A stretch of 15,458 nt of DNA from an uncultured Microbacteriaceae bacterium. GTDB lineage: Bacteria; Actinomycetota; Actinomycetes; Actinomycetales; Microbacteriaceae. Shown here piece by piece: positions 1 through 14,430 of this stretch. The notes beneath the pieces were generated by a model. That model did no database searches and was not told where the DNA came from. It worked only from the letters and a program-made list of their open reading frames with translations. Made by a program: the position numbers and the translations under genes. Location of the stretch: NCBI GenBank assembly GCA_903882245.1, contig CAIRWJ010000141.1, positions 1 to 15,458 of the forward strand, read 5' to 3'. The first letter of the stretch is position 1. Each line of letters opens with the position of its first letter.

Positions 1-3000
1 ACGGTCGCGGCAGCCAGTGCCGCATCCGTGACCTACGTTCTGACTTCTGAGGATGTCGGTGGTGTCATCACCTTCGATGTTCTCGCAATGAAGGACGGTT
101 ACGCCGACGAGCAGGTCAGTTCGAATTCCACAGCGGAAATTGGTCTTGCATCGTTCAACTTGCGGCCCGTTCCCACAATTGCCGGCGTGACTAAAGTCGG
201 AAATACCTTGACCGCGACGACAGGATCCTGGTCGCCCAACCCATCGTCGTTCACATTCCAATGGACGCGTGACGGGGTTGACATTGAATCTGCGACCTCA
301 GAAACCTACGTACTTGGTCCTCTTGACGCGGGGCGCGTCATTCGCGTTGTTGTGACAGGTGTCCGTTCTGATTATGAAAGTCAGTCCAGCACGAGCCTCC
401 CTACGGGATCGATTGCGAACGGAACATTCACCTCGACACCTCTTCCGACGATTTCTGGAACCGCACGTGTCGGTGTAACGGTCTCAGCCGTGACGGGAAC
501 GTGGTCCCCCGTAGCCACATCGAGCACCTTTGTGTGGAAGCGCAATGGCGTTACGATCGCTGGGGCCACCTCGCCAACATATGAAATCGTCGCGGCCGAC
601 CTCAACACGCAACTCACGGTTGTGCAAACAGGTTCGTCCACGGGCTACGCGGCTACCCCCGTCACGAGTTTGCCAACTGTTGCCGTTGTCACCGGAATCT
701 TCGGTACCCAGCCGACACCGCAAGTGTCGGGTCTTGCTCGAATCGGTTCGATGCTCACCGCAAGTTCCGAAGCGTGGCAACCAGCTGCGTCGACGTTGAC
801 ATATCAGTGGAAACGAGCCGGGGTAAACATCACCGGCGCAACCGGTTCGACGTACGTCGTTCAGCCGATTGATGCGGGTTCGACGATTTCGGTCGCCGCT
901 ACCGCATCCAGACTTGCCTACCTGCCCGTGACGAAAGTGAGCGCGGCAACCGCAACAATCGACCACCTGGTGTTCTCCGATGCGGTGACCCCGACAATCT
1001 CCGGCCTCGAAAAGGTCGAAGGTGTCTTGACCGCTTCGACCGGAGACTGGACGCCAACTCCGACGCAATTCACCTATCAATGGAATCGCAAATTCGCGTC
1101 GGACCCCACACCGATCGTGGGTGCCACGAGTGCGACGTATACACTCGTCGGCGCGGATGCGGGCGCGACCATCTCCGTCTCGGTAACGGCGACGAAACTG
1201 GGATACACCCCGTTGACGTACACCAGTGAACGCACCGAGGCCATCGAGAACGGGACACTAAGCTTGACGCCAGTTCCCGTGCTAACGGGCGTTCCCCAGG
1301 TTGGCGTCGCGTACACCGCGGCCCCCGGCACCTGGGCGGCGACACCTGTTCAACTGTCTTACCAGTGGCTGCTCGACGAGGAAGAAATCGACGGTGCGAC
1401 GAGCGCGACGTACACACCCGTAGCAGCCGATGTTGACGGGGTGTTGTCTGTTGAGGTTACGGGTTCCAAGGCGGGATATGACTCTGTCACTCAAACGAGC
1501 GCGGCAACTGAGCCCGTCCTTTTGGGAGTTTTCGCCGCACCAACTCCAACAATCGCCGGAACCCCGAAGGTGGGCATTGCCATCACGGCCACTCCCGGAG
1601 CGTGGGTTCCTGTGACAAGCCCTGCGCGAACATACCAGTGGAAGAAAACGCTGGCTGGAGTCACGACGAACATTTCCGATGCAACTTCAGTGAGCTACAC
1701 CCCCGTGGCCGCGGACGTTGGGGCGACTCTCACCTTCACCGTGTCGGGCGGACGTGACGGCTACGTTACGCAAACCAAGAACAGCATCGCAACAATCGCT
1801 GTCGCGAAGGGAACGTTTAGTGTGCAACCAACTCCCGTGATCTCGGGTGACACCACACCGTCGCGAGTCGGACAGCGTTTGACGGCTTCGGTTGGACGCT
1901 GGACGCCTAATGAGTCTGGGGTCACATACCAGTGGAAGCGAGCGGGTGTCGCAATTGCCGGCGCGACGGGCACAACGTACGACACAGTTGCAGCGGACCT
2001 CAACACCGCCATCACGGTGACCGCAACGGCAACGCTTGTCGGATACGTTGACGGTCCAGCGACCAGTGCCGCGCGAACGATCAGCGCAGGAGTCTTTACT
2101 GCCTCGGCGACACCCCTAATCACTGGCACAAAGGCCGTGAATGGAGTGCTCACCGCCGTCCCTGGAGAATGGTCTCCTGTAGCAACCTTCACCTATCAGT
2201 GGAAGCGCGCGGGAGTCAACATCACCGGAGCAACGGCGTCAACCTACGTTCTACGACCCGAGGACGCCGACAAGAAACTCACTGTCGTCGTCACCGGATC
2301 TCGCGCGGGGTACACGAGCATCGTTAAAACAAGTGCGGAAACCATTGACATCGCCAGAATTCCGTTTACCGCTCATCCCGAACCCATCATCACAGGGACC
2401 GTGGCAGTCGGCCAAACGCTCACCGTCGTGCCCGGAGCGTGGACACCCTCAACCACAGCCTCGCCCATTGTTCTCACCTATCGTTGGGAGCGGGACGGCG
2501 ACCCCATCACGGGAGCTACCTCATCCACGTACGTTGTCCTCGTCTCTGACGAAGGAACGAAACTCCGCGCATATGTCACCGGAACAAAATTGGGTTACAT
2601 TACCGACGAAGAGCCGAGTGCCGAAACGAGCGCGGTGGTAAAGGGTACGTTTACGGCTGCACCTAAGCCCACCATTTCGGGAACTGCGAAGGTTGGGGTT
2701 GCCTTGACCGCTGTGCCAGGCACGTGGGCACCGTCGACAGTTGCAGCGCCGACATCATTCACATATCAGTGGAAGCGGGAAGGCACGAATATTTCTGGCG
2801 CTACCGCAGCAACGTACACCCCAGTAGCAGCGGACCTTGGCAAGCCACTGAGTGTTTCGGTAACAGGTGCGAAAACCGGCTACAACACGGTCACACAGAC
2901 GAGTGATCCGATTGAGCGACTGACCACCATAGCGGGAAGATTCGCGACGGTACCAAGACCGACCATCGCCGGGACCTCAAAGGTTGGTGTGGAACTCACC

Positions 3001-3504
3001 GCAACGCCTGGAACCTGGTTACCCGGTGCGGGATCTCTGACCTATCAGTGGCGACGCAACAAGGGTGCCACAACGATCAACATTGCCGGAGCCACGTCGT
3101 CTCGATACACCCCGGGCGCGGATGACCAGGGGTGGACGCTGTCCGTCGTGACCACTGCCACAACCGCCGGCTACGTCACGACGTCCAGTCCCGCGAGCAT
3201 TTCGACAGCCGTTGTTGCTCTCGGTACGATCGAAACCCCAACCACATTGCCCGCGATTTCTGGAACGGTCAAGGTCGGACAGACGCTGACCGCCACAACC
3301 GGTGCCACGTGGCCGGTTGGCGCGATTTTGGCCTATCAGTGGAACCGCAACGGTTTGGCGATATCGACCGCGCGAGCGAGCACTTATGTCTTGGTGACCG
3401 CTGATTTGACCGCGAGAATAACGGTCACCGTTACTGCGAATCTCCCCGGATATGCGGCCAAAGGCGTGACAAGTCTTCAAACGGTGGCCGTTACCTCACC
3501 CTGA
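1..3504 (+). CDS. Giant Ig-like repeat surface/secreted protein (5' end outside window)
   Basis: The reading frame is open from the first base. The residues before the first possible start (GTG at 28) already fit the repeat pattern, so the true start lies upstream. At least 1167 residues are visible: the end of one repeat, then twelve full repeats of about 88-100 residues. Each has a PTISGTxKVGxxLTAxxGxW half, a TYQWKRxGxxIxGAT core, a TYxxxxxDxG turn, a V-T-G/A-x-xxGY strand and a linker ending in F. These are predicted beta-sandwich domains with a conserved Trp and no cysteine, of a type common in actinobacterial cell-surface and adhesion proteins. The C-terminus stops right after the last repeat, with no LPxTG motif, membrane helix or obvious anchor, so any signal or anchor must be N-terminal and outside the window. 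Ligand and role are unknown. The gene converges on the dehydrogenase gene 36 bp away and seems unrelated to the operons to its right. Confidence 0.9.
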   Translation, partial: TVAAASAASVTYVLTSEDVGGVITFDVLAMKDGYADEQVSSNSTAEIGLASFNLRPVPTIAGVTKVGNTLTATTGSWSPNPSSFTFQWTRDGVDIESATSETYVLGPLDAGRVIRVVVTGVRSDYESQSSTSLPTGSIANGTFTSTPLPTISGTARVGVTVSAVTGTWSPVATSSTFVWKRNGVTIAGATSPTYEIVAADLNTQLTVVQTGSSTGYAATPVTSLPTVAVVTGIFGTQPTPQVSGLARIGSMLTASSEAWQPAASTLTYQWKRAGVNITGATGSTYVVQPIDAGSTISVAATASRLAYLPVTKVSAATATIDHLVFSDAVTPTISGLEKVEGVLTASTGDWTPTPTQFTYQWNRKFASDPTPIVGATSATYTLVGADAGATISVSVTATKLGYTPLTYTSERTEAIENGTLSLTPVPVLTGVPQVGVAYTAAPGTWAATPVQLSYQWLLDEEEIDGATSATYTPVAADVDGVLSVEVTGSKAGYDSVTQTSAATEPVLLGVFAAPTPTIAGTPKVGIAITATPGAWVPVTSPARTYQWKKTLAGVTTNISDATSVSYTPVAADVGATLTFTVSGGRDGYVTQTKNSIATIAVAKGTFSVQPTPVISGDTTPSRVGQRLTASVGRWTPNESGVTYQWKRAGVAIAGATGTTYDTVAADLNTAITVTATATLVGYVDGPATSAARTISAGVFTASATPLITGTKAVNGVLTAVPGEWSPVATFTYQWKRAGVNITGATASTYVLRPEDADKKLTVVVTGSRAGYTSIVKTSAETIDIARIPFTAHPEPIITGTVAVGQTLTVVPGAWTPSTTASPIVLTYRWERDGDPITGATSSTYVVLVSDEGTKLRAYVTGTKLGYITDEEPSAETSAVVKGTFTAAPKPTISGTAKVGVALTAVPGTWAPSTVAAPTSFTYQWKREGTNISGATAATYTPVAADLGKPLSVSVTGAKTGYNTVTQTSDPIERLTTIAGRFATVPRPTIAGTSKVGVELTATPGTWLPGAGSLTYQWRRNKGATTINIAGATSSRYTPGADDQGWTLSVVTTATTAGYVTTSSPASISTAVVALGTIETPTTLPAISGTVKVGQTLTATTGATWPVGAILAYQWNRNGLAISTARASTYVLVTADLTARITVTVTANLPGYAAKGVTSLQTVAVTSP
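157..3501 (+). repeat. Twelve tandem Ig-like coding repeats (~270-300 bp each)
   Basis: Repeat units begin near 157, 430, 703, 976, 1261, 1534, 1819, 2098, 2368, 2653, 2944 and 3232. Units differ in length mainly through insertions around the WxP loop (for example units 9 and 10, with STTASP and STVAAP) and after the QW strand (units 4, 6 and 11). The protein consensus is well kept while the DNA is diverged, so these are not recent duplications. Confidence 0.88.
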
Positions 3505-3540: not shown

Positions 3541-4581
3541 CTACGCGCCCGTGACGAGGACGACTTTCGTCATCTCTTTCTTGTCGAAGGCCGCGTACGC
3601 CATGGCTGCGTCTTCCAAAGGGATCTGGTGAGTGAGTACTTTCGACGGAGAGAACTTTCCCGACTGAATCGCAGCGAACATGCGCTCGCGGTCTTTTGTC
3701 GGATTACCGACGGAAAAAATCAAGGTCAGTTCCTTCTCGAACATCACCCCATTATTGAGCGGGAAATCGGGTTCGAAATGAGCGCCGACGACCGAGACAA
3801 CACCTTGCGGGCGCGCAAGGCCAAACGCCGACTGCATCGCGGGAACTGAACCCGAAGCTTCGATGACAACATCCGCACCAATGCCGTGGGATAGCTGATT
3901 GACGAGTTTCGCCGTTGCCTCCCCCGGTTCAACGGCCGTCGCCCCGAGGCTTTCCGCGAGTTTACGCCGGTCGAAAATACCGTCGACGGCGATTACCCGT
4001 CGAGCGACACCGACCGAAGCGATGATTGCCATCAGTCCCACCGGCCCACACCCCAGAACAACCACCAGGTCGCCGTTCGAGACATTGCCGCGCTGGACCG
4101 CGGCGAAGCCGGTTGGGAGGATATCGGCCACAAAGATCGCGTCCTCATTGCTGACGTCGTCAGGGACACCCCACAGTGTTCGACTCGCGTTGGGGATGCG
4201 AACAAATTCGGCCTGACCCCCGTCGAGTTTCGGGTAAACACCGGAGTACCCGAACAACGCTCGGTCATCACACTGGGTGACGCGGTTGGCGCGGCAGTGC
4301 CCGCATGTCCCGTCCGAGGTCATGCTGGTATTGACAACTCGCTGTCCGATTGTTATCCCCGTGACCGCGTCGCCGAGTTCGGTGACCGTGCCCACAAATT
4401 CGTGTCCAAGAATTGTTCCGAATTCGAATCCGGGCGTGTATCCGTGATACGGCAGAAGGTCTGCTCCACAAATTGCGGTGTGCGAAACCTTGACAATGGC
4501 GTCCGTCTGTAGCTGAATCGTCGGGTCCGGAACCTCGTTGACGCGAACGTCTTCCGGTCCCATGAGCTGAACAGCTTTCAT
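3541..4581 (-). CDS. Zinc-dependent alcohol dehydrogenase (MDR superfamily), candidate pyridoxal/pyridoxine dehydrogenase
   Basis: This is a 346-residue medium-chain dehydrogenase of normal family length. The N-terminal GroES-like domain carries the catalytic zinc set C38 (ICGAD), H60-E61 (GHE) and probably D153. The structural zinc loop has C93, C96 and C104, with D90 where the first Cys usually sits; an acidic ligand is known there in Sulfolobus ADH. The Rossmann fold has GxGxxG at 177-182 and D200 at the end of beta-2, which favours NAD over NADP. The ATG at 4581 overlaps the VOC stop as ATGA and has GAGGAG five bases upstream. It is the last gene of the operon of transporter, PPAT-like aminotransferase and VOC gene. 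The family call is firm but the substrate is inferred. The best guess from context is oxidation of a hydroxymethyl or aldehyde group of a B6 vitamer, for example the pyridoxal made by the aminotransferase. Another alcohol or polyol is possible. Confidence 0.85.
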   Translation of the reverse strand: MKAVQLMGPEDVRVNEVPDPTIQLQTDAIVKVSHTAICGADLLPYHGYTPGFEFGTILGHEFVGTVTELGDAVTGITIGQRVVNTSMTSDGTCGHCRANRVTQCDDRALFGYSGVYPKLDGGQAEFVRIPNASRTLWGVPDDVSNEDAIFVADILPTGFAAVQRGNVSNGDLVVVLGCGPVGLMAIIASVGVARRVIAVDGIFDRRKLAESLGATAVEPGEATAKLVNQLSHGIGADVVIEASGSVPAMQSAFGLARPQGVVSVVGAHFEPDFPLNNGVMFEKELTLIFSVGNPTKDRERMFAAIQSGKFSPSKVLTHQIPLEDAAMAYAAFDKKEMTKVVLVTGA

Positions 4582-4982
4582 GCCATCTCCTCAATTTCGA
4601 TGAGGTACCCATCGGGGTCGACGATGAAGAAGCGACCTCCACCCCACGGCGGACGAAAGACCTCCGAGGCGATGGTGACGCCCGCGGCGCGAAGTGCAGC
4701 GTGCACCGTGTCACAGTTGGCGACCTCAACCACGAGCATGGTCGGTTGGTTTGTCACGTCGGACGGTGGGTAATGAAAGTGACCTGGGATGTCGTCTGCC
4801 TCCGTGCCTTTTTCTGCGAACGAAAGACGCATTTGGTTGAGGTGCAGAATTGCATAGTCTGGCGCTTCGAAGGTCTGCTCGACGCTGAACCCCAAATGCT
4901 CGGAGTAAAACGTGGTCGATCGAGAAACGCTCTCGACAGCAAGGATCACTCCCCCACGGCGGAATTCCGATTCGTTCGTCAC
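4578..4982 (-). CDS. VOC (glyoxalase/bleomycin-resistance fold) family protein
   Basis: This 134-residue protein has two beta-alpha-beta-beta-beta halves: about residues 10-56, with the FYSEHLGF helix, and about 80-131, ending in the family signature DPDGYLIEIEE. Of the four metal-ligand positions usual in glyoxalase and dioxygenase members, only the C-terminal Glu (E129) is clear. The first-strand position is aliphatic, so metal-dependent chemistry is doubtful. The GTG start at 4982 is chosen because GGAGG lies six bases upstream, and it overlaps the aminotransferase stop as GTGA. At this size it is a single VOC module, too short for a classic two-domain extradiol dioxygenase. Its position between a PPAT-like aminotransferase and a dehydrogenase suggests a step or accessory role with a B6 vitamer, such as binding, isomerisation or lactone handling. 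That is inference only. Confidence 0.8.
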   Translation of the reverse strand: MTNESEFRRGGVILAVESVSRSTTFYSEHLGFSVEQTFEAPDYAILHLNQMRLSFAEKGTEADDIPGHFHYPPSDVTNQPTMLVVEVANCDTVHAALRAAGVTIASEVFRPPWGGGRFFIVDPDGYLIEIEEMA

Positions 4983-6148
4983 GATGTGCCTCCATTGCGT
5001 CCCAATACCGCCATCGCGGCGTCAATTCCGGCACCGAGGTCGATTCCGCGAATTCCCTTGTCAATCAACCCTCGACCAACCGCGGCGAGTCCGACGATGG
5101 GGTACATGCCGCTCGCACTAGGGCCCATGTGCGCGATTCGCAACAAGTTTCCCGCGCCTTGCCCGCTCGACAACATGACTCCGTATCGTTCCCGAATGTG
5201 CGTGCGCATCTCGACATCGTTGACCGAATCAGGGAGCGCGATGGTCGTCAGGCAGTTGGCCGAGATGTCAACCGATGCTGGCCAGAGTTTCAGCCCCATC
5301 GCAACGGCACCGACACGGGTCACCTCCGCCGAACGCGCGTGACGTCGAAGGGAATTCTCGAGACCCTCCTCTAGCAGCTGGTCAAGAACAGATTCCACGC
5401 CGTAGATGTCCGAAACAGACGGGGTAAAGGGGAACCGCCCCTCGTCCCTCCATTTGATTTTCCAGTCGATGATCGACAAATACGAATCGCGAGGCGCTTT
5501 GGGGTTGGCAAGTATGTGGCTCCATGCCCTATCACTGACTGCAACCATTCCAATTCCGGCCGGCCCACCCAGACATTTTTGGGCACCGGTGACGACGACG
5601 TCCATGTTCCATGCGTCGGTCTTGAATTCGAGCCCGCCGATCGACGAAACGGCATCGACCAGTGTCAATGCCCCGTGCTTTCGAGCGATTTTGCCTATCT
5701 TTTCACAATCCGTGATGGTGCCGGACGGGGTCTCAGAGTGAACCATCGCAATCATCGACACCTCGGGGTGTCCCTTGAGGTAGGTCGCCACGGATTCGGG
5801 GCTCACCGCTGCGTTGTAGGGAACTTCAATCTCGTGAAGGATTGCGCCGAACTCGGTGAGCCAGTAGCCCATCCCCTTGCCAAAAACCCCCTGCGCAAGA
5901 TTGAGGACATGCATTCCCTCGGTGACCATCGACCGTGCCACAGACTCGAGCGCAAGAATGGCTTCCCCCTGCATGAGGAAGACATCATTCTTCGTCTGGA
6001 AAACCCGCGCAGCCTTTTTCTCGACTCGTCGGAACCGCTCAAGGAATTCAGGGTCATAGTGATACACGATGGGTTCACCCATCGCGGCGAGCGTCCTTGG
6101 CGTTGCCATCACGGGGCCGGCTGAGAGAGTGAAATCGAGTTGGTGCAT
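4979..6148 (-). CDS. Pyridoxamine-pyruvate aminotransferase-like class V aminotransferase
   Basis: The 389-residue fold-type I class V aminotransferase should convert pyridoxamine + pyruvate to pyridoxal + L-alanine without PLP (EC 2.6.1.30), in the cytoplasm. Visible marks are SAGPV (9-13), VYHYDPEF (28-35), VLNLAQGVFGKGMGYW (81-96), ETPSGT (139-144), VDAVSS (164-169), the Schiff-base lysine K191 in TGAQKCLG, FPFTPSVS (239-246) and RIAHMGP (337-343). These follow M. loti PPAT as I recall it, with K191 matching K197. E62 (QGEA) matches Glu68, the side chain that blocks the PLP phosphate and makes PPAT specific for unphosphorylated pyridoxal. R337 matches Arg345, but Q330 replaces Arg336, a substrate-carboxylate contact. 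The ATG at 6148 has GGAG eight bases upstream and precedes the conserved start of the family; an in-frame extension to 6235 runs into the permease gene and looks non-native. The gene lies 25 bp behind the transporter. A serine- or alanine-glyoxylate aminotransferase is less likely because of E62. Confidence 0.83.
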   Translation of the reverse strand: MHQLDFTLSAGPVMATPRTLAAMGEPIVYHYDPEFLERFRRVEKKAARVFQTKNDVFLMQGEAILALESVARSMVTEGMHVLNLAQGVFGKGMGYWLTEFGAILHEIEVPYNAAVSPESVATYLKGHPEVSMIAMVHSETPSGTITDCEKIGKIARKHGALTLVDAVSSIGGLEFKTDAWNMDVVVTGAQKCLGGPAGIGMVAVSDRAWSHILANPKAPRDSYLSIIDWKIKWRDEGRFPFTPSVSDIYGVESVLDQLLEEGLENSLRRHARSAEVTRVGAVAMGLKLWPASVDISANCLTTIALPDSVNDVEMRTHIRERYGVMLSSGQGAGNLLRIAHMGPSASGMYPIVGLAAVGRGLIDKGIRGIDLGAGIDAAMAVLGRNGGTS

Positions 6149-6173
6149 GCGGTTTCTCCAGTTGTTCAATCGG

Positions 6174-7109
6174 TTAGCGCGCGCCACGCGTATATGGCAC
6201 ACCGAGTGCCGGGGGCACGTACGACGAGCGGGCAAAGACGATGAGCGTGATCATCACCGCGACGAAAGGAAGCATTTTGATCACATCGGTAGGAAGGTCG
6301 AACGACGTCAACTGGAGCACTGTCCCAACAGACACACTTATTCCGTAGACAAATGATGATGCAATGACCCACAAAATTCGTCCGCGCGACAGCATGGTGA
6401 CGACGATGGCGATGTACCCGATACCTGATGTCATGAACGGCGTGAAGGTCCCCGCCGACATGAGCGCTAGGTACGCTCCGCCGAAACCTGCGAATGCTCC
6501 GCCAAGAAGCGCCACAAAGGTTCGGGTGCGGACGACGTTGCCTCCGGCGGCATCGAGGGAATTGGGGTTTTGCCCTGCCGCTCGAACGCGCAATCCGAAA
6601 TTCGTGTTTCGGAGCACGACCGAGACAACAAACGCGAGCACCAATGCGATCCAGAAGGCCAATGGTTGCTGAAAGATGCTGGAACCCACAACCGGAAGGT
6701 CCGAGAGAACCGGAATGGGAAACACGTCGGGCTGACCCAGCCGCGGAGTCGTCTGACCATATGTTGAGAAATACAGAACGCTCGTGATACCGCCACCGAT
6801 CATCGTAAGGGCAAGCCCGATGACAATCTGATTGAGCCCGAGCCAAATGTTCAACATCACCATCAGTATGGACATCACGAAGCCGGCTGCGATTCCCGCG
6901 AGTAAACCAAGGAAGTACGAATTGGTTTCCAGGGTTGTGACGAACCCAAAATACGCCCCGAACAACATCATTCCTTCGATCCCGAGGTTGAGGACCCCCG
7001 ATTGCTCGCCCAGTGTTTCACCGAGCGAGCCGAGGACGAGTGGAATTGCGCTCGCAATGACGCCCGCAATGAACGTCGCGATAAACGTGGTGGTGAAGAT
7101 GTCGATCAC
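6174..7109 (-). CDS. ABC transporter permease, BPD_transp_2 family (YufQ-like)
   Basis: This 311-residue, very hydrophobic inner-membrane protein has about eight to ten predicted helices. It carries the family signature GVLNLGIEGMM (38-48) and the cytoplasmic loop NFGLRVRAAGQNPNSLDAAG (170-189) that couples to the ATPase. It is the second, shorter permease of the nucleoside/BMP-type importer (BMP lipoprotein, double ATPase, two unlike permeases), related to branched-chain amino acid and ribose permeases. The GTG at 7109 overlaps the stop of the upstream permease as GTGA and has GAGGAG seven bases upstream. Known relatives import nucleosides. Here the next gene, 25 bp away, is a PPAT-like aminotransferase, so a pyridine-type vitamer is the inferred cargo. 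Confidence 0.88.
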   Translation of the reverse strand: MIDIFTTTFIATFIAGVIASAIPLVLGSLGETLGEQSGVLNLGIEGMMLFGAYFGFVTTLETNSYFLGLLAGIAAGFVMSILMVMLNIWLGLNQIVIGLALTMIGGGITSVLYFSTYGQTTPRLGQPDVFPIPVLSDLPVVGSSIFQQPLAFWIALVLAFVVSVVLRNTNFGLRVRAAGQNPNSLDAAGGNVVRTRTFVALLGGAFAGFGGAYLALMSAGTFTPFMTSGIGYIAIVVTMLSRGRILWVIASSFVYGISVSVGTVLQLTSFDLPTDVIKMLPFVAVMITLIVFARSSYVPPALGVPYTRGAR

Positions 7110-8254
7110 GCGCGTGCTCCTCTGTCAAATAGTCCCGTGACGGCACGACGCAGACCGGGCGGAAGATAACTTTGCCCCAGATCTTTTTTCACGCCGAAGT
7201 ATTCGATGACGGACATAAACACCAAAATGAGCGCAATCACGATCATGAGGAAGTGGGTGTCTAAGCCGCTGTCAAGCGACGCTAAGCGACCGCCGGTATC
7301 AAGAATGCAATAGAAGGCGACAAACGGAATTGTCGTCAGAATGTTCAGTCGACCGAGGAACACAAACGGCAACACCGCCGCACCATACCCAGGATTAATG
7401 TTTGCTCTGAGGTTGCCCTGATAGCCCAGCATGTCCACCGAGGCGGCCAACCCAATGAGAGCGCCACTCAAGATGAACAGAATCAGAATCATTTGCGGTG
7501 AATTGATGCCGACGTGCAGTGCTGTCTTTGGGCTCGATCCGAAAACGTCTAGTCGGAGTCCAAATGACGTGCGGGTAAGAAGTAGGTGAATGATGAGCAC
7601 GACGACGACGGAAATGATTATTCCGATATGAATGCGCGTGCCAGGGATTTGCGGAAACATATCGGCGACCGGCAATACTCGCGTTTGAGGCACGTGGATG
7701 TCCGGGTTTTGGAATGGTCCGCGAACAAGCATGTTCGAAATTCCGATTCCGATGAAAGACATCATGAGGGTTGTGATAATTTCGTTGGTTCCATAGCGCG
7801 CTTTCAGCGCGGCAGGGAGGAGTGTCCAGGCAGCACCGGCAGCGGTACCCATAATGAGCGACACGGTGAAGGCCGCCCACAGAGGCATAACCTCGATCAA
7901 CATTGGGCTGAACCCCGCGACGACGACAGAGCCGAGCAAGTACTGCGCGTCATAACCGAGATTCCACAGCTTTCCGCGAAAGACGACGATGAGACCCGCC
8001 GAATAGAGCAACAGCGGTGCCATCAACCGAATTGTTTGTTGCCAGCCATTCCCCATCACCCCGTAGCGGAACACTTCACTGTAAAAGAACCAGGGGTCTT
8101 TCCCAATGACGATGAGAACCACCACCGAGGTGAGAAGTGCGAGCACCACGGGGAGAATCGTGCGCACAAGCGTCTCCATGACCTTAGACAATTTCGATTG
8201 TCCATCCGATGGAAGAGGAATCATTCCCGTCGCGTCGCTAATGGGGTTAGACAT
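7106..8254 (-). CDS. ABC transporter permease, BPD_transp_2 family (YufP-like)
   Basis: The 382-residue membrane protein has a short cytoplasmic N-terminus, a first helix at about 31-51 and several more helices through about residue 350. The motif LWNLGYDAQ (96-104) stands where relatives have FNIGxEGQ. A large extracytoplasmic loop at about 180-205 precedes the helix at 208-226, and the ATPase-coupling loop FGLRLDVFGSSPKTALHVGIN spans about 231-251. This layout is that of the longer permease of BMP/nucleoside-type importers. The ATG at 8254 is chosen because GGAAGG lies just upstream and the residues after it look native; an in-frame extension to 8338 lies wholly within the ATPase gene. It overlaps the ATPase end by 8 bp and the next permease by 4 bp, implying coupled translation and stoichiometric assembly. 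Confidence 0.87.
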   Translation of the reverse strand: MSNPISDATGMIPLPSDGQSKLSKVMETLVRTILPVVLALLTSVVVLIVIGKDPWFFYSEVFRYGVMGNGWQQTIRLMAPLLLYSAGLIVVFRGKLWNLGYDAQYLLGSVVVAGFSPMLIEVMPLWAAFTVSLIMGTAAGAAWTLLPAALKARYGTNEIITTLMMSFIGIGISNMLVRGPFQNPDIHVPQTRVLPVADMFPQIPGTRIHIGIIISVVVVLIIHLLLTRTSFGLRLDVFGSSPKTALHVGINSPQMILILFILSGALIGLAASVDMLGYQGNLRANINPGYGAAVLPFVFLGRLNILTTIPFVAFYCILDTGGRLASLDSGLDTHFLMIVIALILVFMSVIEYFGVKKDLGQSYLPPGLRRAVTGLFDRGARA

Positions 8255-9878
8255 GATTTCCTTCCGAGTGCGCCGAGCCGACCATGAATTCTCCGACCTG
8301 TCGAGCCGTATCTGGTGAATTATTTTCGACCTCGCCAACGAGGCGCCCGCGAGAAATGATGGCGACGCGGTCGGAAAGCTCGACGAGTTCGTCCAAATCT
8401 GTTGAAATCAGCAACACCGCCCCTCCCTGTTCAGCGAAATCCTTGACAATCTTTCGGACGCGATTAACCGTCTTGAGGTCGAGTCCGTAAGTCGGTTTGT
8501 TGAAGACGACCACCGTGGGTTGATGGGACAATTCGCGCGCGAGGAGCAGTTTTTGAATGTTTCCACCCGATAGCGCGCCCGCGCGAGCATGAATGCTAGG
8601 CGTGCGAATCTCGAAGGCTTCGACGAGTCTCGTTGCCTCGGCATCCACGTCGGGCTTGCTGATTTGTCCGCGTTTCCAGTAGGGAAGTTTTCCGATTTGT
8701 TTGAGCAAGAGGTTTAGTGCAACGCTCAAATCGGTGACTATTCCCTCGTGGAGTCGGTCATCCGTGACGTAACGCAGCCCGAGCTCTTGACGAGCACGCA
8801 CGCCGAGTTTGGTCACGTCGTCGCCGTCCAGAAAGACGCTGCCACTTGTCGCTCTAACTTGACCTGCCACGACCTCAGCGAGGGCGCTCTGCCCGTGTCC
8901 GTCAATTCCCGCCACCCCGATTACTTCACCGGCGCGTAATTTGAGAGAGACGTTTGACACGCCAAATTCTGTCGGTGTCGACGGAGTGGTAACGTCCGCG
9001 AGGTGAAGGACGAGTTTCTCGTCCGATCGGCTCGACTTTGTTCGCACCTTCGTGGCGACTTTTGCTCCGGACAACAATTCGACGTCATTTCGATCCCCGA
9101 TAGCAGAGATGTCGTCGCCGAACATGGCCGCCAAAACGGCATTGGTAAACTTTTCTTCGCTCAGACCTTCGAGAGTTTCGGCATCAATGCTTGCAATGAG
9201 TCGTCCCCTCCTGAGCACGCTCACCTCATCGCCCATGGAATAGGCCTCACGTAGTTTATGGGTGATGAAAATCACGGCAATGCCGTCTTTCGTCAGTCGC
9301 TCGACACTTGCGTCAAGGTCCGCGATCGCCTGCGGTGCAAGCATGGATGTCGGCTCGTCCAGGATCAGCACCCTCGATCCTTTCCACATCGCTTTGGCAA
9401 TTTCAACCTGTTGTTGTTGGCCAAGTGCAAGGTCGGCTGCTTCCGCATCTGGGTCGATCTCGACTCCGAGCATCGCGGAAATCTCCGTTAATCGGCTGCG
9501 AGCACTTTCCCGATTCAGGAAGGCGCCTCCCGTGACGCCAAGCATGAGGTTTTCAAGCACGGTCATCGTCGAGATGAGGGTCGAGTGTTGGTAGACAACC
9601 CCGATTCCATAGTCCATTGCAGAACGGGGCGACGAGATGTTGACCTTCTGGCCATCGATCTCGATCCAACCTGTGTCGGGCTGTTGCATACCCGCCAGGA
9701 TGCTGATGAGTGTCGACTTACCTGCCCCGTTTTCACCGAGGAGACAGTGCACCCGACCCGGGCGAATATCGAGCGTGATGTCGTCGTTGGCGATGACGCC
9801 GGGGAAGACCTTTCCGACGTGTCGCATTGAGACGACAGGTGTGTTCGAATGTGTTGCGGCTGCGCTGCGCGCGTTCAC
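8247..9878 (-). CDS. ABC transporter ATP-binding protein with two fused NBDs (sugar/nucleoside type)
   Basis: This 543-residue protein is the energy subunit of the importer. NBD1 is complete: Walker A GENGAGKST (48-56), Q-loop Q97, signature LALGQ (150-154), Walker B LILDE (171-175) and switch H207. NBD2 is degenerate: a P-loop without Lys (GIDGHGQSA, 324-332), a good signature LSGGN (436-440), Walker B reading VVVFNKP (456-462) with no Asp/Glu pair, and Thr (ISTDLDE, 491-497) in place of the switch His. Such asymmetry is usual in the YufO/RbsA-like family, where one ATP site is catalytic. The linker at about 255-290 is polar and probably disordered. The GTG start at 9878 has GAGGAG six bases upstream. 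It follows the lipoprotein gene after 109 bp that contain a strong hairpin, and its stop overlaps the permease start. Confidence 0.92.
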   Translation of the reverse strand: MNARSAAATHSNTPVVSMRHVGKVFPGVIANDDITLDIRPGRVHCLLGENGAGKSTLISILAGMQQPDTGWIEIDGQKVNISSPRSAMDYGIGVVYQHSTLISTMTVLENLMLGVTGGAFLNRESARSRLTEISAMLGVEIDPDAEAADLALGQQQQVEIAKAMWKGSRVLILDEPTSMLAPQAIADLDASVERLTKDGIAVIFITHKLREAYSMGDEVSVLRRGRLIASIDAETLEGLSEEKFTNAVLAAMFGDDISAIGDRNDVELLSGAKVATKVRTKSSRSDEKLVLHLADVTTPSTPTEFGVSNVSLKLRAGEVIGVAGIDGHGQSALAEVVAGQVRATSGSVFLDGDDVTKLGVRARQELGLRYVTDDRLHEGIVTDLSVALNLLLKQIGKLPYWKRGQISKPDVDAEATRLVEAFEIRTPSIHARAGALSGGNIQKLLLARELSHQPTVVVFNKPTYGLDLKTVNRVRKIVKDFAEQGGAVLLISTDLDELVELSDRVAIISRGRLVGEVENNSPDTARQVGEFMVGSAHSEGNHV

Positions 9879-9926
9879 ATCAATCTCCTCAGTAGTTGCT
9901 CATGAAATTGTTTACCACGATATGCC

Positions 9927-9963
9927 CGTGGGGCATGTTGTCGAAACGGCAACACGCCCCACG
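9927..9963 (-). other. Intercistronic hairpin between lipoprotein and ATPase genes
   Basis: Read on the - strand, a 17-nt arm (CGTGGGGCGTGTTGCCG) is followed by TTT and an almost perfectly complementary 17-nt arm. There is one G-U wobble and one mismatch. No U-tract follows, so it is not a normal intrinsic terminator. It lies 24 bp after the lipoprotein stop, where many binding-protein transporter operons carry an mRNA-stabilising or attenuating stem-loop that keeps the binding protein more abundant than the membrane parts. Confidence 0.7.
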
Positions 9964-9987
9964 AGTGTGTAAATGAACTACTGTTCG

Positions 9988-11070
9988 CTACTTGCCATCG
10001 ATGATGGCCTGGACCGCGTCCTTGGTGGTCGAGGTCATCACGGTGATGGAACCATCTGCGATTCCGGCCGTAGCTGCATCCACAGCGGCTTGTACATCGG
10101 CGCTGAGGTTGGCGGTCTTCGCAAGCGAGAGACCTCCGTTGGCTACGTTCAAGGTGTAGTTCGCGTCACCGAAGATACCGGCGTCGATGTCCTTGATTGC
10201 CTGAACATAAGTGGGCGCGAAGTTCCACAGAACCGAGGTGAGTTCAACGCCAGTCGTGTCGATTTCGGCAACGTCGCCGATGGTCGCAATGTACTGAACA
10301 GTCGAACTTGCAGTTTCGATCGCCTGGAGGTAACCGACGGTTGCACCGTCACCCATACCGATGATGATGTCGGCACCGGCTGCGATTACCTGTTCGGTGA
10401 TGCGCTTGCCACCGGCAGAGTCACCGTACTCGGCAGGACCGATGTAGGCGATGACGATCTTGAGGTCCGGGTTGACGCTGTAAGCACCCTGGGCGAAGCC
10501 GCCGGCCATGTTGAACCAGTTGACGTCTTCAGCCGAAGCGACAATGCCGAGTGTTCCAGTTTTCGTCGCGTTGGCGGCTGCGATACCGGCAAGGTATCCA
10601 CCTTCTTGCGAGTCAAAGAAGACACCAGCTACCTGGCAGTGGACCTTCTGGTCAAGGTCAACGACGAGGACGGGTGAACCCGACGTCTCAGCGACGCGAG
10701 CGCCACCAGTTGCGAACCCACTTGCGTGAGCGATAACAAACTGGTTTCCCTTGTCGATGGTCTGTTGGACGATCGCCTCGGCGTTGTCGTAGCCGACGCC
10801 CTTGTTGATGTCAGCAGTGATACCCAGTTGCGTGGCAGCTTCGCCCGCTCCGAGAATCGCCTGCTGGTTCCAACCGTGGTCTGCTTCTGTTTCCGGGGTG
10901 ACGACCGCGAACTGTGAGATGGGCTCCGTGGTGCAACCCGTCGCAGTTGGGACTTCCTCAGTCTCAGTCGGCGTTGCCGCACAACCGGCAAGAGCAATCA
11001 CTGCGGCTGCGATGCCCAGTGCAATGCTCGAACGGATGGTGGCGTGGGGCTTGTCTGAAATAAGTTTCAT
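9988..11070 (-). CDS. BMP-family substrate-binding lipoprotein of the ABC importer
   Basis: This 360-residue protein captures the substrate outside the membrane. The N-terminal signal peptide of the lipoprotein class has a hydrophobic core at about 15-29 and the lipobox LAGC with the lipid-bearing C30, followed by a Thr/Glu-rich tether. The mature part shows the BMP/PnrA-like layout: strand ISQFAVVTPE, TEADHGWNQQ (61-70), the Asp-containing repeats of a type I periplasmic-binding fold, EGGYLAG (156-162) and GMGDGATVGY. The ATG at 11070 is chosen because it puts the signal peptide at the N-terminus; upstream in-frame residues to 11145 do not look like a signal. AGGAAG lies just upstream of it. 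Relatives bind purine nucleosides and similar ring compounds. Co-transcription with a PPAT-like enzyme points to a B6 vitamer, by inference. C46 and C145 could form a disulfide. The gene is first in the operon. Confidence 0.88.
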   Translation of the reverse strand: MKLISDKPHATIRSSIALGIAAAVIALAGCAATPTETEEVPTATGCTTEPISQFAVVTPETEADHGWNQQAILGAGEAATQLGITADINKGVGYDNAEAIVQQTIDKGNQFVIAHASGFATGGARVAETSGSPVLVVDLDQKVHCQVAGVFFDSQEGGYLAGIAAANATKTGTLGIVASAEDVNWFNMAGGFAQGAYSVNPDLKIVIAYIGPAEYGDSAGGKRITEQVIAAGADIIIGMGDGATVGYLQAIETASSTVQYIATIGDVAEIDTTGVELTSVLWNFAPTYVQAIKDIDAGIFGDANYTLNVANGGLSLAKTANLSADVQAAVDAATAGIADGSITVMTSTTKDAVQAIIDGK

Positions 11071-11151
11071 TCTTCCTTTTTCCCTTCCATGTGAAGTGAT
11101 GACTAACCAGAACTGCGTAGAAATTATTACACTTTGCAATTCCACTTTGAA

Positions 11152-11179
11152 TATATAAGAACATGGGTGTTCAAGTCAA
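11152..11179 (-). promoter_or_regulatory. Putative sigma-70-type promoter of the transporter/PPAT operon
   Basis: On the - strand TTGACT (11179-11174) and TATATA (11157-11152) are separated by 16 bp, upstream of the lipoprotein start with an expected leader of about 75 nt. The region is clearly more AT-rich than the surrounding coding DNA. A second, weaker -10-like TAATAA lies about 25 bp downstream and could be an alternative. Confidence 0.6.
11159..11172. promoter_or_regulatory. Palindromic operator candidate between -35 and -10
   Basis: GAACA-tggg-TGTTC is a perfect 5+5 inverted repeat sitting inside the promoter spacer. A protein bound here would block RNA polymerase. The IclR-family regulator encoded immediately upstream is the natural candidate. 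Confidence 0.5.
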
Positions 11180-11290: not shown

Positions 11291-12070
11291 TCAACCGTTG
11301 GGGTGACTGAGGGATTCGTTGAGAATGCCATTGGCGATCTCTGTCGACGCATCCTTGACAATGGTCCGGAATCGCACGCGAGTTTCTTCGGGGATACGGA
11401 ATGCGGGAGCGACAATCGAAACAGCCCCAACAACGCGCGAACTCACTATGACCGGAGCGGCGACGGCCCACACGCCCGAATCGACCTCCGACTCACTTTC
11501 CGCAAAGTTTGTCTGCCCGATGACACCGAGCTGGGACTCCAAACGAAAAAGTTCCTCTGGAAGCAACTGAGGTTCGAGCGCGGCGAAATACTGCTGTTGT
11601 TTACGGGCGGGAAGATTAGCCAACAAGGTCTTCGCAGCGGCCCCGCGATGAAGTGGCATGATGTGCCCGGGTCGGAACGAAATCGCAAGACTCTTGTCGG
11701 GCTGGGCGACCGCTACACAGACCGCCGCATCCCGAATGCGTTTAACAACGAGCGCCGTTTCATGTGTTTCATGCATTATGCGTTCCAGTACTGGCCTCGA
11801 AACGCTCGCGAGGTCGAGCGATACTTCCGACGCAGCAGCGAGGCGCAGAACTTGGGGTGACAATGAATAACTCCCCCGATTGCGCTCCTCGACAAGATAC
11901 ATCTCGCGCAGAAGTGAAAGATAACGGTATGCGCTAGGTATTGAAATCCCGTGGATTTTGGCAATTTCTTCGATCGTCGTCTCAGGCTTCGTCTCGCTAA
12001 ATTGCAGCAAAATCTGCAACACACGGCGTGCGCTGTCGACACCACGTGTTGCCTTAGCCGGATTCGCCAC
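11291..12070 (-). CDS. IclR-family transcriptional regulator
   Basis: This 259-residue protein has the standard IclR length and order. An N-terminal winged helix-turn-helix spans about residues 10-70 (VDSARRVLQILLQF, then the recognition helix ISIPSAYRYLSLL at 42-54 and the wing YLVEERNRGSYSLS). A GAF-like effector domain spans about 80-250, with the family markers PLHRGAAAKTLLA, ESEVDSGVWAVAAPV and VVGAVSIVAPAFR. The GTG at 12070 has GAGGGG about eight bases upstream. It is the last gene of the B6-type degradation operon, and its 3' end faces the transporter operon promoter, where two palindromes occur. It is inferred to control both operons, with a pathway intermediate as effector. Whether it represses or activates cannot be read from sequence. 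Confidence 0.9.
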   Translation of the reverse strand: MANPAKATRGVDSARRVLQILLQFSETKPETTIEEIAKIHGISIPSAYRYLSLLREMYLVEERNRGSYSLSPQVLRLAAASEVSLDLASVSRPVLERIMHETHETALVVKRIRDAAVCVAVAQPDKSLAISFRPGHIMPLHRGAAAKTLLANLPARKQQQYFAALEPQLLPEELFRLESQLGVIGQTNFAESESEVDSGVWAVAAPVIVSSRVVGAVSIVAPAFRIPEETRVRFRTIVKDASTEIANGILNESLSHPNG

Positions 12071-12161: not shown

Positions 12162-12623
12162 CTAAGGCGTGCTGAATGTCGCGACAAAACGATTTTGCTC
12201 GAGGATGTTGCTGGCGTACTTTTCGAGGAACGACTCTCGCGAATGCGGCCCGTCGACGTGCGCATCAAGCGCATAGACCCAGAAATAATAGTGATGTACA
12301 CCGTGCCCCTGAGGTGGCTGCGGACCTGTGTAGACGGGTTCGCCAATACCGTTCAAGCCCTGAGTGAAATCACGGAAATTCGCCGCCGAGATTTCGGTCG
12401 TGTCCGTTGGGATGTTGAAAAGCGTCCAGTGCGTGAACCCGTTCGGCAATGGCGCATCGGGATCGTTGAGAACGAACGCGAGTTCAATTGCATCCGAACC
12501 CACCCCCGAGATGGAAATCGTCGGAATTGCGTTTCCCGCATCTGCGCTAAATCGATCAGGTATACGGCCAAGGGACGGAATATCAGGAGATGACACGGTG
12601 AGGTCGGCGATGTACTTGGGCAT
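12162..12623 (-). CDS. YbhB/YbcL-family PEBP-like protein
   Basis: The 153-residue protein belongs to the bacterial phosphatidylethanolamine-binding/Raf-kinase-inhibitor-like family. It shows PDIPSLGRIPDRFSAD at the N-terminus, the DPDAP motif (54-58), THW (64-66) and the GPxPPxGxGxHHY motif (100-112), which together form the anion-binding pocket. The ATG at 12623 has GGAAA about six bases upstream; a TTG four codons earlier is possible but that region looks like the ribosome binding site itself. It lies 23 bp behind the hydrolase gene and 91 bp before the regulator, so it is co-transcribed with the degradation enzymes. No enzymatic role is established for the family. Binding of an anionic pathway intermediate is an idea, not a conclusion. 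It has no signal peptide and should be cytoplasmic. Confidence 0.88.
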   Translation of the reverse strand: MPKYIADLTVSSPDIPSLGRIPDRFSADAGNAIPTISISGVGSDAIELAFVLNDPDAPLPNGFTHWTLFNIPTDTTEISAANFRDFTQGLNGIGEPVYTGPQPPQGHGVHHYYFWVYALDAHVDGPHSRESFLEKYASNILEQNRFVATFSTP

Positions 12624-12646: not shown

Positions 12647-13480
12647 TTAAGTGGTTCGGTTGACAAAATCATGGACCAATCGAGCAATCTCAACTGGCTT
12701 TTCTTCCGGAACATAGTGGTCCGCGCCCTCCACGAGAGCGAATTCCAGGTCAGGGCGCAAATTCTTAGTACTCTCGAACGCTGCCGCGGTGACGAGCACA
12801 CTGTTTACCCCGCGAACCAATAACCCCGGAACCTCAACCTCGGACAGCGCAGGGGCAAGGTTTTCCCTTAACCCCTGAACGGTTTGGGCCATCGCCAACG
12901 GATCCGCGAGCGGCCGAAAAAGTCCGTCTTTCTCCACAAAACCGTTGCGGGCTCGTCGCACAATCGCGTCGCGCGGAATGGCGGGGTAACGTTCGGCAAG
13001 GTAACCCTCGACGTCATCGAGAGATTCAAAGCTTCGTGACCCACCCGTGACGCGTTGTTCGAGGGAATCAAAGACGTCGTCTTCGATGAACGGAGTGAAG
13101 TCGATGCCGACGAACCCAGATACGAGCTGGGGGAACGTCGACGCGGCGACTATCGCGTTGCGCGATCCGAGAGAGTGGCCAACGATGACCGCCCGACCCC
13201 CCGGCGCGCGAGTTTCAATTAACCGAGCAACATCGGAACTGTAGTCGGATGCGGAATACCCGGTCGCGGGCTTGTCGCTTCGCCCATGTCCTCGCTGATC
13301 CACGGCCATGACGTGAAACGTTTTTTCCAGAATTGCGACGATTGGCTCCCACACCGCGAGGTTTGCGGTTACGCCGTGCAACAACACCAACGACGTGGAC
13401 CCCCCGCCCGAAAAGTCGACGTTAAGAGAAATGTCTCCGACGGGAACAATCTCTCGATGTCGAGCGGACGAAGGGGCCAC
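12647..13480 (-). CDS. Alpha/beta hydrolase, likely (E)-2-(acetamidomethylene)succinate hydrolase
   Basis: This 277-residue cytoplasmic alpha/beta hydrolase is inferred to catalyse the last step of B6 breakdown: ring-opened acetamidomethylene succinate to succinate semialdehyde, acetate, ammonia and CO2 (EC 3.5.1.29). Visible are LLHGVTAN (33-40), VDQRGHGRSDKPATGYSASDY (60-80), the nucleophile elbow GHSLGSRN with S103, D127 in GIDFTPFI, and H255 in GADHYVPEE. The triad S103/D127/H255 equals the M. loti enzyme's Ser106/Asp130/His258 shifted by exactly three, as I recall it. The shared stretches IDFTPxIE and VDQRGHGxSDKPxTGY are specific rather than generic for the superfamily. The GTG at 13480 lies 8 bp after the dehydrogenase stop with a weak AGGG upstream. 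It sits directly behind the FHMPC dehydrogenase-like gene. A generic esterase or dienelactone-type hydrolase is the alternative. Confidence 0.8.
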   Translation of the reverse strand: MAPSSARHREIVPVGDISLNVDFSGGGSTSLVLLHGVTANLAVWEPIVAILEKTFHVMAVDQRGHGRSDKPATGYSASDYSSDVARLIETRAPGGRAVIVGHSLGSRNAIVAASTFPQLVSGFVGIDFTPFIEDDVFDSLEQRVTGGSRSFESLDDVEGYLAERYPAIPRDAIVRRARNGFVEKDGLFRPLADPLAMAQTVQGLRENLAPALSEVEVPGLLVRGVNSVLVTAAAFESTKNLRPDLEFALVEGADHYVPEEKPVEIARLVHDFVNRTT

Positions 13481-13488
13481 GTCGTGCC

Positions 13489-14430
13489 CTAGATGATGCT
13501 GCCGCTGAGTGGAGCCGGCATCGATTTGCGAACCGCGATGAATTGCTTCACGATTTCGCCACGTGTCTTTGCGACGTCGCCGTCACCGTACTCGAAAATT
13601 CCCCCAGAGGACTTCATCCCAAGCTCCCCCTTCTCGACGAGATCAGAGATGAAGGATGGGACCCCTGCAGTGTTGGACAGATCGGGGTTGAGGTAACTCG
13701 CAACACTTGTGTAAATGTCGAGTCCGGCCATATCCAGCAAACGCATCGGCCCAACGACAGCCAACTTGTAGCCGATGCCCCACTTCACGCACACGTCGAG
13801 GTCACGTTGCGAGATGACCCCCTCGTCGACGAGTGCGAGGCACTCGCGAAGGATCGCGTACAGCACGCGGTTTTCGACGAAACCAGCTTTCTCTTTTTCG
13901 TACACCGCCTCATAGCCAAACGCATGGACAATCTCAATGAGTCGGTCGGCAATCGCACCGCCAGTCTTTTCGCCCGGTACAACCTCGATCATGGGGATGA
14001 TGTGCGGCGGGTTCGACCAGTGCATGCCGATAAAGCGTTCGGGGTTTGTCAGTGCTTCGGCAATCGCAGTGATGGGGATACCGGAGGTGTTCGACGCAAT
14101 GATGACGTCTTTCCCCACGTACTTTTCGACATCGGCCAACACGGATTTTTTGAGGTCAATTTTTTCGGGAACAGCCTCGACAACAAAATTCGTGTCGGTC
14201 AGAGCTTCGGCAAGATCGGTGTGGAATGTGACCGTACCGGACGACGTGGATTTGCCGCCGATCTGGTCGAGCACACTCTCACACAGCGTGAGAGCGCTCT
14301 TGGCATTTTCGAGGGCGACCTCACTGATGTCAAAAACTCGAACCTGCGAGCCAGCGCGAGCAAAGATTGCCGCGATTCCGGGACCCATCGTTCCAGAACC
14401 GACGATGGTGGTGATTGCGGGAAGAGACAT
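13489..14430 (-). CDS. 3-hydroxyacyl-CoA-dehydrogenase-like enzyme, likely FHMPC dehydrogenase
   Basis: This 313-residue NAD-dependent enzyme is inferred to oxidise 5-formyl-3-hydroxy-2-methylpyridine-4-carboxylate to the 4,5-dicarboxylate (EC 1.2.1.100). The N-terminal Rossmann domain has GSGTMG (11-16) and D34 ending beta-2 (NAD preference). The catalytic region is SNTSGIPIT (113-121) and IGMHWSNPPHIIPMIEVVPGEKT, with H137 and E149. The helical C-terminal domain starts near KAGFVENRVLYA (181-192). The stretches MHWSNPPHIIPMIEV and WGIGYKLAVVGPMRLLDMAGLDIY match the M. loti B6 enzyme as I recall it, H137 at the same number, and are unlike ordinary CoA-thioester dehydrogenases. The ATG at 14430 has AAAGGAG six bases upstream. 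It lies between the decarboxylase-like gene (35 bp) and the hydrolase (8 bp). A true 3-hydroxyacyl-CoA dehydrogenase is the alternative, but no thiolase, hydratase or CoA ligase is nearby. Confidence 0.82.
   Translation of the reverse strand: MSLPAITTIVGSGTMGPGIAAIFARAGSQVRVFDISEVALENAKSALTLCESVLDQIGGKSTSSGTVTFHTDLAEALTDTNFVVEAVPEKIDLKKSVLADVEKYVGKDVIIASNTSGIPITAIAEALTNPERFIGMHWSNPPHIIPMIEVVPGEKTGGAIADRLIEIVHAFGYEAVYEKEKAGFVENRVLYAILRECLALVDEGVISQRDLDVCVKWGIGYKLAVVGPMRLLDMAGLDIYTSVASYLNPDLSNTAGVPSFISDLVEKGELGMKSSGGIFEYGDGDVAKTRGEIVKQFIAVRKSMPAPLSGSII

Follow-up and report, generated by a model that had tools for sequence, protein, structure and literature searches.

What does a binding-protein-dependent importer take up when its genes run directly into a gene for a vitamin B6 enzyme? 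The question is raised by a stretch of DNA of 15,458 nucleotides (the window; GenBank CAIRWJ010000141.1, our contig C141), which is an entire contig of a metagenome-assembled genome (MAG) of an uncultured Microbacteriaceae bacterium (1.1 Mb in 272 contigs, given as 75% complete). It encodes an ATP-binding cassette (ABC) importer of the BMP family, followed by a gene for an enzyme resembling pyridoxamine-pyruvate aminotransferase (PPAT), and an initial annotation of this DNA proposed an undescribed B6 transporter. Judging from sequence comparisons, we consider it likely that the BMP-type importer takes up unphosphorylated B6 and feeds the co-encoded degradation enzymes of pathway I. The genes at the centre of this reading are as follows.

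9988 to 11070, minus strand: BMP-family substrate-binding lipoprotein of the B6 type (NF047927), with a Pfam Bmp domain and a lipobox (...ALAGC); 395.3 bits, cut-off 400
8247 to 9878, minus strand: double ATP-binding protein of the importer (NF047930); 743.4 bits, above the cut-off of 670
7106 to 8254, minus strand: permease (NF047929); 439.6 bits, above the cut-off of 400
6174 to 7109, minus strand: permease (NF047928); 360.6 bits, its best family by far but under the cut-off of 465
4979 to 6148, minus strand: PPAT-like enzyme (NF046070); 434.6 bits, cut-off 600, next family 174.8

These positions, with a gap of 25 bp between the permease stop (6174) and the PPAT start codon (6148), bear out the arrangement initially described, namely a lipoprotein, a double ATPase and two permeases followed by PPAT-like, VOC and dehydrogenase genes, all of them on the minus strand. 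The two permease genes overlap by 4 bases, as do the PPAT and VOC genes and the VOC and dehydrogenase genes. For each of the four importer subunits the best NCBIfam match is one of the “putative B6 ABC transporter” models (NF047927 to NF047930), and two of the four score above the cut-off. The system therefore cannot be called undescribed, since these models already name all four subunits and relatives carry the same name. The name is itself a prediction, and the family is known under it. On the whole, the window importer is well supported as a borderline member of this family. At a rhizobial locus the lipoprotein and PPAT score above the cut-offs and the importer genes have the same order as in the window, whereas the window lipoprotein and the NF047928 permease score below theirs. 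The accompanying statement that no B6 importer of the BMP family is established may be right, as our literature search, which covered a minority of subscription papers, yielded no paper on one among those listed.

The fold of the lipoprotein brings up a different ligand. The predicted structure (pLDDT 84.9) shows the BMP fold, and among its nearest solved structures are PnrA, BmpD, and Lbp with nucleosides, as well as AtzT; the B6-type proteins share with the nucleoside importers PnrA, BmpA, and BmpD the binding-protein fold, the lipoprotein character, and the positions of an aromatic sandwich. Among the best 50 matches listed per fold search no B6-binding protein is named, which excludes nothing. 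Thus, the window might encode a nucleoside or purine importer adjoining an aminotransferase of the ureidoglycine/serine-glyoxylate type, in which case the genes would serve purine salvage and the likeness to B6 enzymes would come through the aminotransferase family only. PucG, which ranks second among the PDB matches of the aminotransferase, and a weak match to AllR among the models hit by a nearby IclR-type regulator fit the same picture.

The ligand pocket argues otherwise. In BmpA, Phe27 and Phe176 form the aromatic sandwich and Asp98, Asp225, and Lys242 contact the ribose (PMC13325309, available text). We aligned 84 B6-type lipoproteins with 31 canonical BMP proteins, the latter from 30 loci and a paralogue in the window's own genome. 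The B6-type set comprises 80 genome loci, the best of 97 stretches encoding a lipoprotein relative in a scan of public genomes, and four plasmid loci from 23 plasmid records matched. The Phe27 position is occupied by Phe in 31 of 31 canonical proteins versus Trp in 78 and Tyr in 6 of the 84 B6-type ones, and the Phe176 position by Phe in 29 of 31 versus Tyr in 84 of 84. Asp is found at the Asp225 position in 30 of 31 canonical proteins versus Ile in 82 of 84, and Lys at the Lys242 position in 30 of 31 versus Trp in 68 and Phe in 15 of 84; the Asp98 position is Asp in 30 of 31 canonical proteins and retains Asp in 58 and Glu in 17 of the 84. The window lipoprotein, read by motif, has Trp and Tyr in place of the two Phe residues, Ile in place of Asp225, and Trp in place of Lys242, and it keeps Asp98. 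Two peptide patterns served to pick the loci in the scan, and the pocket Trp is part of one of them; the other is the only pattern matched at 59 of the 80 loci, which have Trp in 53 cases and Tyr in 6. Neither pattern covers the positions of the Ile, Tyr, and Trp/Phe changes. A look at the pocket, suggested at the outset, thus finds the aromatic clamps retained and two of the three nucleoside-type ribose contacts gone. An aromatic ring clamp of this kind would suit a pyridine such as B6, without being proof of B6.

In a phylogenetic tree, the 84 B6-type lipoproteins form a branch separate from five canonical BMP proteins (support 100/99, with long-branch warnings). The riboflavin-binding protein RfuA of Treponema (4iil) has a different ligand and only 16% identity. 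The own-genome paralogue (G000:C217:656-1420; L001, L008), a second BMP lipoprotein that we aligned among the canonical proteins, carries Phe at the Phe27 position, Asp at those of Asp98 and Asp225, Lys at that of Lys242, and Thr at that of Phe176.

The aminotransferase also points to B6. Although under the NF046070 cut-off, it scores 260 bits above the next family. Its best PDB match is 2z9u (2e-105), deposited as an aspartate aminotransferase, which we take to be PPAT of Mesorhizobium loti; PucG follows at 1e-41. With Glu68, Lys197, Arg336, and Arg345 presumed to be the PPAT active-site residues, so numbered, alignment finds Glu68, Lys197, and Arg345 equivalents in the window protein and Gln at the Arg336 position, where the 56 aligned sequences have Gln in 26 cases, Tyr in 18, and Arg in 3, the latter rhizobial. 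The PPAT-type Glu (in a QGE motif) is present in 56 of 56, whereas PucG has another residue there. Given these PPAT scores, the pocket residues, and the neighbour genes, which include two ring-degradation genes of the B6 pathway in the same gene string, we set purine salvage aside as very improbable.

If the importer carries B6, its relatives should be found repeatedly beside B6 genes, and a survey of this co-occurrence had been suggested with the initial annotation. Neighbour genes were called by tblastn with named queries and identity thresholds set per family; clustering of open reading frames was dropped because of shadow reading frames in high-GC DNA. Five enzymes were treated as the B6 core: PPAT, lactonase, pyridoxal dehydrogenase, 5-formyl-3-hydroxy-2-methylpyridine-4-carboxylate (FHMPC) dehydrogenase, and the ring-opening oxygenase MHPCO. 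At least one of them is encoded at 63 of the 84 loci and at 47 of the 52 well-flanked ones (at least 5 kb on each side), four of the 47 on one weak match. PPAT is the commonest core neighbour (55 of 84 loci; 40 of the 52). The loci come from Actinomycetota, Chloroflexota, Thermomicrobiota, Spirochaetota, a SAR324 MAG, and Alphaproteobacteria. In a second sample, of 396 Actinomycetota genomes, the lipoprotein is found in 4 and PPAT (E up to 1e-85) in 3, all within those 4 and at 2.5 to 4.5 kb from the lipoprotein gene, a pairing with a chance of about 4e-7 if genomes are independent; one genome (G218) carries a second copy elsewhere. A control set of 198 genomes, whose handles recur among the 396, has 132 BMP matches in 99 genomes, 2 of them of the B6 type; no strong PPAT is encoded near any of the remaining 130. 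More divergent PPATs would escape both counts.

Which form of B6 would be taken up is suggested by the same neighbours. The prevalence of PPAT indicates pyridoxamine as a ligand. Six well-flanked loci (L032, L034 to L037, and L042) have lactonase and pyridoxal dehydrogenase genes and no PPAT within 10 kb, which indicates pyridoxal and suggests that the ligand is not pyridoxamine alone. A binding site accepting several vitamers is thus the safest reading of these gene neighbourhoods. The same six loci would also fit an importer of B6 derivatives or breakdown products (4-pyridoxate, 4-pyridoxolactone, or pyridoxine glucoside) or of a wider range of substituted pyridines, the vitamin not being the main ligand. 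So would two rhizobial loci and a Thioclava locus with 4-hydroxyphenylacetate 3-hydroxylase-type genes, the rhizobial ones with an annotated dihydroxypyridine dioxygenase as well. We hold this to be rather unlikely, since the substrate of PPAT, the most frequent of the five core neighbours, is pyridoxamine, and since Leucobacter genomes with the importer only mostly lack PdxS (see below), which fits a need for the vitamin.

The two rhizobial loci and the Thioclava locus (L009, L010, L012) also encode amidases, and perhaps represent a different pyridine degradation route. Elsewhere, an amidohydrolase (PF04909; L031:5325-6044) is found at 21 of the 84 loci, 12 of which have no detected homologue of E-2-(acetamidomethylene)succinate (E-2AMS) hydrolase, and an LLM-class oxidoreductase (L048:16176-17210) at 12 of the 84, none with MHPCO; the latter enzyme is a possible alternative for ring opening.

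Further genes of the cluster lie upstream of the importer genes, as follows.

12647 to 13480, minus strand: E-2AMS hydrolase; best PDB match 3kxp (2e-78), next 7e-19
13489 to 14430, minus strand: FHMPC dehydrogenase-like protein of the 3-hydroxyacyl-CoA-dehydrogenase type; NF042925, 387.5 bits, cut-off 500, next family 196.7
14466 to 15242, minus strand: class II aldolase-fold protein (Pfam Aldolase_II), with a homologue at 33 of the 84 loci
15278 to 15457, minus strand: tail of a PF06684 (AA_synth) gene that is truncated where the contig stops; over 60 residues it is 80% identical to its L014 counterpart

The ring-degradation genes reported for the next operon are thus present, as FHMPC dehydrogenase-like and E-2AMS hydrolase genes in one string with the importer, and the string extends further than first described: the named genes are co-directional from the PF06684 tail (15457) down to a zinc dehydrogenase gene (3541). 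The best PDB match of the FHMPC dehydrogenase-like protein is 4om8 (7e-88), the next being 4e-39. The residues named for E-2AMS hydrolase are Ser106, His258, Asp130, Ser230, Arg146, Arg167, Tyr168, Arg179, Tyr259, and Glu262 (PMC3538738, available text). By our own count in an alignment to 3kxp (offset 36), all ten are identical in the window hydrolase. The aldolase-type protein is weakly similar to Mlr6791 (2z7b, 8e-12), with five other chains ranking above, and from its context is probably the HMPDC decarboxylase.

The window terminates within a further gene of the cluster, and the related loci indicate what lies beyond. At an Aurantimicrobium locus (L014) the order is lactonase, pyridoxal dehydrogenase, MHPCO, PF06684, decarboxylase, FHMPC dehydrogenase, hydrolase, PEBP, and IclR, followed by lipoprotein, ATPase, two permeases, PPAT, VOC, and zinc dehydrogenase; its lactonase and pyridoxal dehydrogenase score above the NCBIfam cut-offs, and its MHPCO matches the solved enzyme at 2e-135. 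A sister genome has a lipoprotein identical to that of the window (L013) and a contig (L143) whose overlap with the end of the window is 2293 bp at 99.2%; beyond it, L143 carries the PF06684 gene and MHPCO as well as a portion of pyridoxal dehydrogenase. Neither MHPCO nor lactonase was found in the window's own, 75%-complete MAG; for MHPCO this is attributable to the contig ending there, since the sister genome has it. The window very probably holds a B6-degradation cluster that is truncated where the contig stops. Searched for on plasmids, FHMPC dehydrogenase and MHPCO gave only relatives of less than 60% identity. The PF06684 gene (L014:4603-5226; 15278 to 15457 in the window) occurs at 21 of the 84 loci and adjoins MHPCO in L014 and L143.

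Compared with pathway I of M. loti, the window likewise has PPAT-like, FHMPC dehydrogenase-like, and E-2AMS hydrolase genes, while lactonase, pyridoxal dehydrogenase, and MHPCO are those of L014, the last two being also on the sister contig. The order of the steps is partly general background. The importer would capture unphosphorylated B6 outside the cell and carry it inward, most likely pyridoxal and pyridoxamine and perhaps pyridoxine. PPAT would convert pyridoxamine to pyridoxal, from which pyridoxal dehydrogenase and lactonase, encoded outside the window, would produce 4-pyridoxate. The zinc dehydrogenase would probably oxidise 4-pyridoxate to the 5-formyl acid, and FHMPC dehydrogenase, the decarboxylase, MHPCO (again outside the window), and E-2AMS hydrolase would turn the ring into succinic semialdehyde and small products. 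Part of this order follows PMC6253932 (available text).

A departure of the window from pathway I of M. loti involves the last two genes of the string.

4578 to 4982, minus strand: VOC-fold protein (Pfam Glyoxalase), found at 11 of the 84 loci, 9 of which also have the zinc dehydrogenase
3541 to 4581, minus strand: zinc-type alcohol dehydrogenase (Pfam ADH_N and ADH_zinc_N), candidate 4-pyridoxate dehydrogenase

In pathway I, 4-pyridoxate must be oxidised before FHMPC dehydrogenase can act, and both 4-pyridoxate dehydrogenase and pyridoxine oxidase of M. loti are of the GMC type. Where 16 of the 20 clusters with MHPCO carry a GMC oxidoreductase, the window has the zinc enzyme; the other four (L014, L016, L017, L018) have zinc dehydrogenase and VOC genes, and no cluster has both or neither (p = 2e-4 if the loci were independent, which they are not). 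The simplest reading of this distribution is that the zinc dehydrogenase substitutes for the GMC enzyme as 4-pyridoxate dehydrogenase, which would make it a candidate new enzyme. Some data count against such a swap. Neither dehydrogenase is encoded at 6 of the 30 well-flanked loci with at least three core enzymes (L049, L056, L070, L078, L079, L090), so other enzymes can perform the step; the zinc dehydrogenase occurs at five loci with no detected MHPCO (L043, L048, L053, L057, L059); and the GMC enzyme may act as a pyridoxine oxidase, in which case the zinc enzyme would be a pyridoxine dehydrogenase.

Could the imported B6 serve as a cofactor supply instead of food, with the degradation genes trimming the excess? 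This view is compatible with a B6 importer as such, and PdxS bears on it. No PdxS was found in the window's own MAG, at its 75% completeness and with the PdxJ route not searched; the same MAG has one match to the pyridoxal-kinase family, under the cut-off. The sister genome (G396), however, has PdxS together with more of the degradation cluster, and for this reason auxotrophy of the window organism is not claimed. Hosts of 32 of the 80 genome loci were examined for PdxS; with L015, a 4.2-kb contig, set aside, PdxS is present in 20 of 23 hosts with pathway genes versus 1 of 8 Leucobacter-type hosts. Counting L015, in whose genome a partial MHPCO but no PdxS was found, gives 20 of 24. The eight Leucobacter-type loci (L019 to L024, L026, and L064) form a nested clade with the importer and no pathway genes in the flanking DNA. 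Among 54 Leucobacter genomes, 9 have the importer, and PdxS is found in 1 of these 9 versus 30 of the 45 others; the 8 importer genomes without PdxS comprise five genomes titled as MAGs (L019, L021, L023, L026, L064), two named strains (L020, L022), and G440. At most, this pattern suggests that in Leucobacter the importer can serve as a vitamin supply. With the sister genome and most pathway-gene hosts carrying PdxS, we think it improbable that cofactor supply is the main use in the window organism. A Leucobacter genome (G403) also has an MHPCO-like match at 41%.

Several observations weigh against a B6 importer feeding degradation. The lipoprotein is 5 bits short of its cut-off, and the NF047928 permease, PPAT, and FHMPC dehydrogenase are well short of theirs. 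The literature searched, with most subscription papers outside it, yielded no measurement of binding, of transport, or of growth for a member of the family. The BmpA residue numbers were mapped by motif, BmpA itself standing outside the alignment. Four of the 47 positive loci (L065, L067, L068, L087) depend on a single match of 36 to 41% identity, and five well-flanked loci have no core enzyme, namely L010 and the Leucobacter-type L020, L022, L023, and L024; L010 and L022 are above the NF047927 cut-off, so that this model also covers importers without B6 neighbours. One of the 4 lipoprotein genomes among the 396 (G261) has no strong PPAT. Rhizobial loci have PPAT and gave no match to the lactonase, pyridoxal dehydrogenase, or MHPCO queries at the chosen thresholds, from which it follows that the downstream chemistry differs there. 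Finally, the association of the Leucobacter importer with missing PdxS (Fisher p = 0.003) is uncorrected for kinship and completeness. On the other side stand the family models, a neighbourhood conserved in several phyla, the pairing with PPAT, and the lost nucleoside contacts, which support the B6 ligand put forward initially, if not the novelty of the system.

Three further features lie between the importer genes and the E-2AMS hydrolase gene.

11150 to 11179, minus strand: promoter-like site TTGACT-18-TATATT before the importer genes, from a motif scan
11291 to 12070, minus strand: IclR-family regulator, possibly of the B6 cluster (Pfam IclR_C), with a homologue at 27 of the 84 loci
12162 to 12623, minus strand: PEBP (YbhB/YbcL) family protein, with a homologue at 20 of the 84 loci

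The promoter-like site lies in the largest gap of the string (220 bp, ahead of the lipoprotein gene). With 6 promoter-type sites found between 3300 and 12200 against 3.5 expected it is weak evidence by itself; comparable sites were seen by eye ahead of the BMP gene in L013, L014, L015, L017, and L018. We know of no role of the VOC, PEBP, and PF06684 genes in B6 degradation. On the plus strand, convergent with the importer genes, positions 28 to 3504 encode a large protein with Ig-like repeats of about 90 residues (by eye); its Pfam matches are SCAB-Ig and AIR9 Ig only, and no tandem array was detected in the DNA of the gene.

Binding-protein-dependent uptake of a B6 form has a precedent in the ABC importer P5PA/P5PAB of Actinobacillus, which differs in having a Type II binding protein like AfuA and in importing the phosphorylated form, pyridoxal 5'-phosphate (PLP); the available text (PMC8427247) does not mention BMP proteins. 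This Pasteurellaceae PLP importer is presented as the first such system, and candidates of the ECF type have been described (PMC8427247 and PMC6253932, available text). A wider proposal would join all of the above: a first BMP-family B6 importer that feeds degradation in prototrophs and supplies the vitamin to Leucobacter that lost PLP synthesis, with a zinc dehydrogenase that, in the branch of the window, took over from the GMC-type enzyme and is a new 4-pyridoxate dehydrogenase. We regard this combination as possible but doubtful, because five of the eight PdxS-less Leucobacter genomes are MAGs and because six enzyme-rich loci have neither dehydrogenase. Its new points can be tested: the signature of the pocket, the zinc-dehydrogenase swap, and the pattern in Leucobacter. 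The swap offers an enzyme that can be assayed directly for one step of a known pathway. Only a small number of B6 importers are known in bacteria. If the BMP-type importer does carry B6, uptake of the vitamin would become predictable from genomes in several phyla, and some actinobacteria would be consumers of a vitamin that others need.

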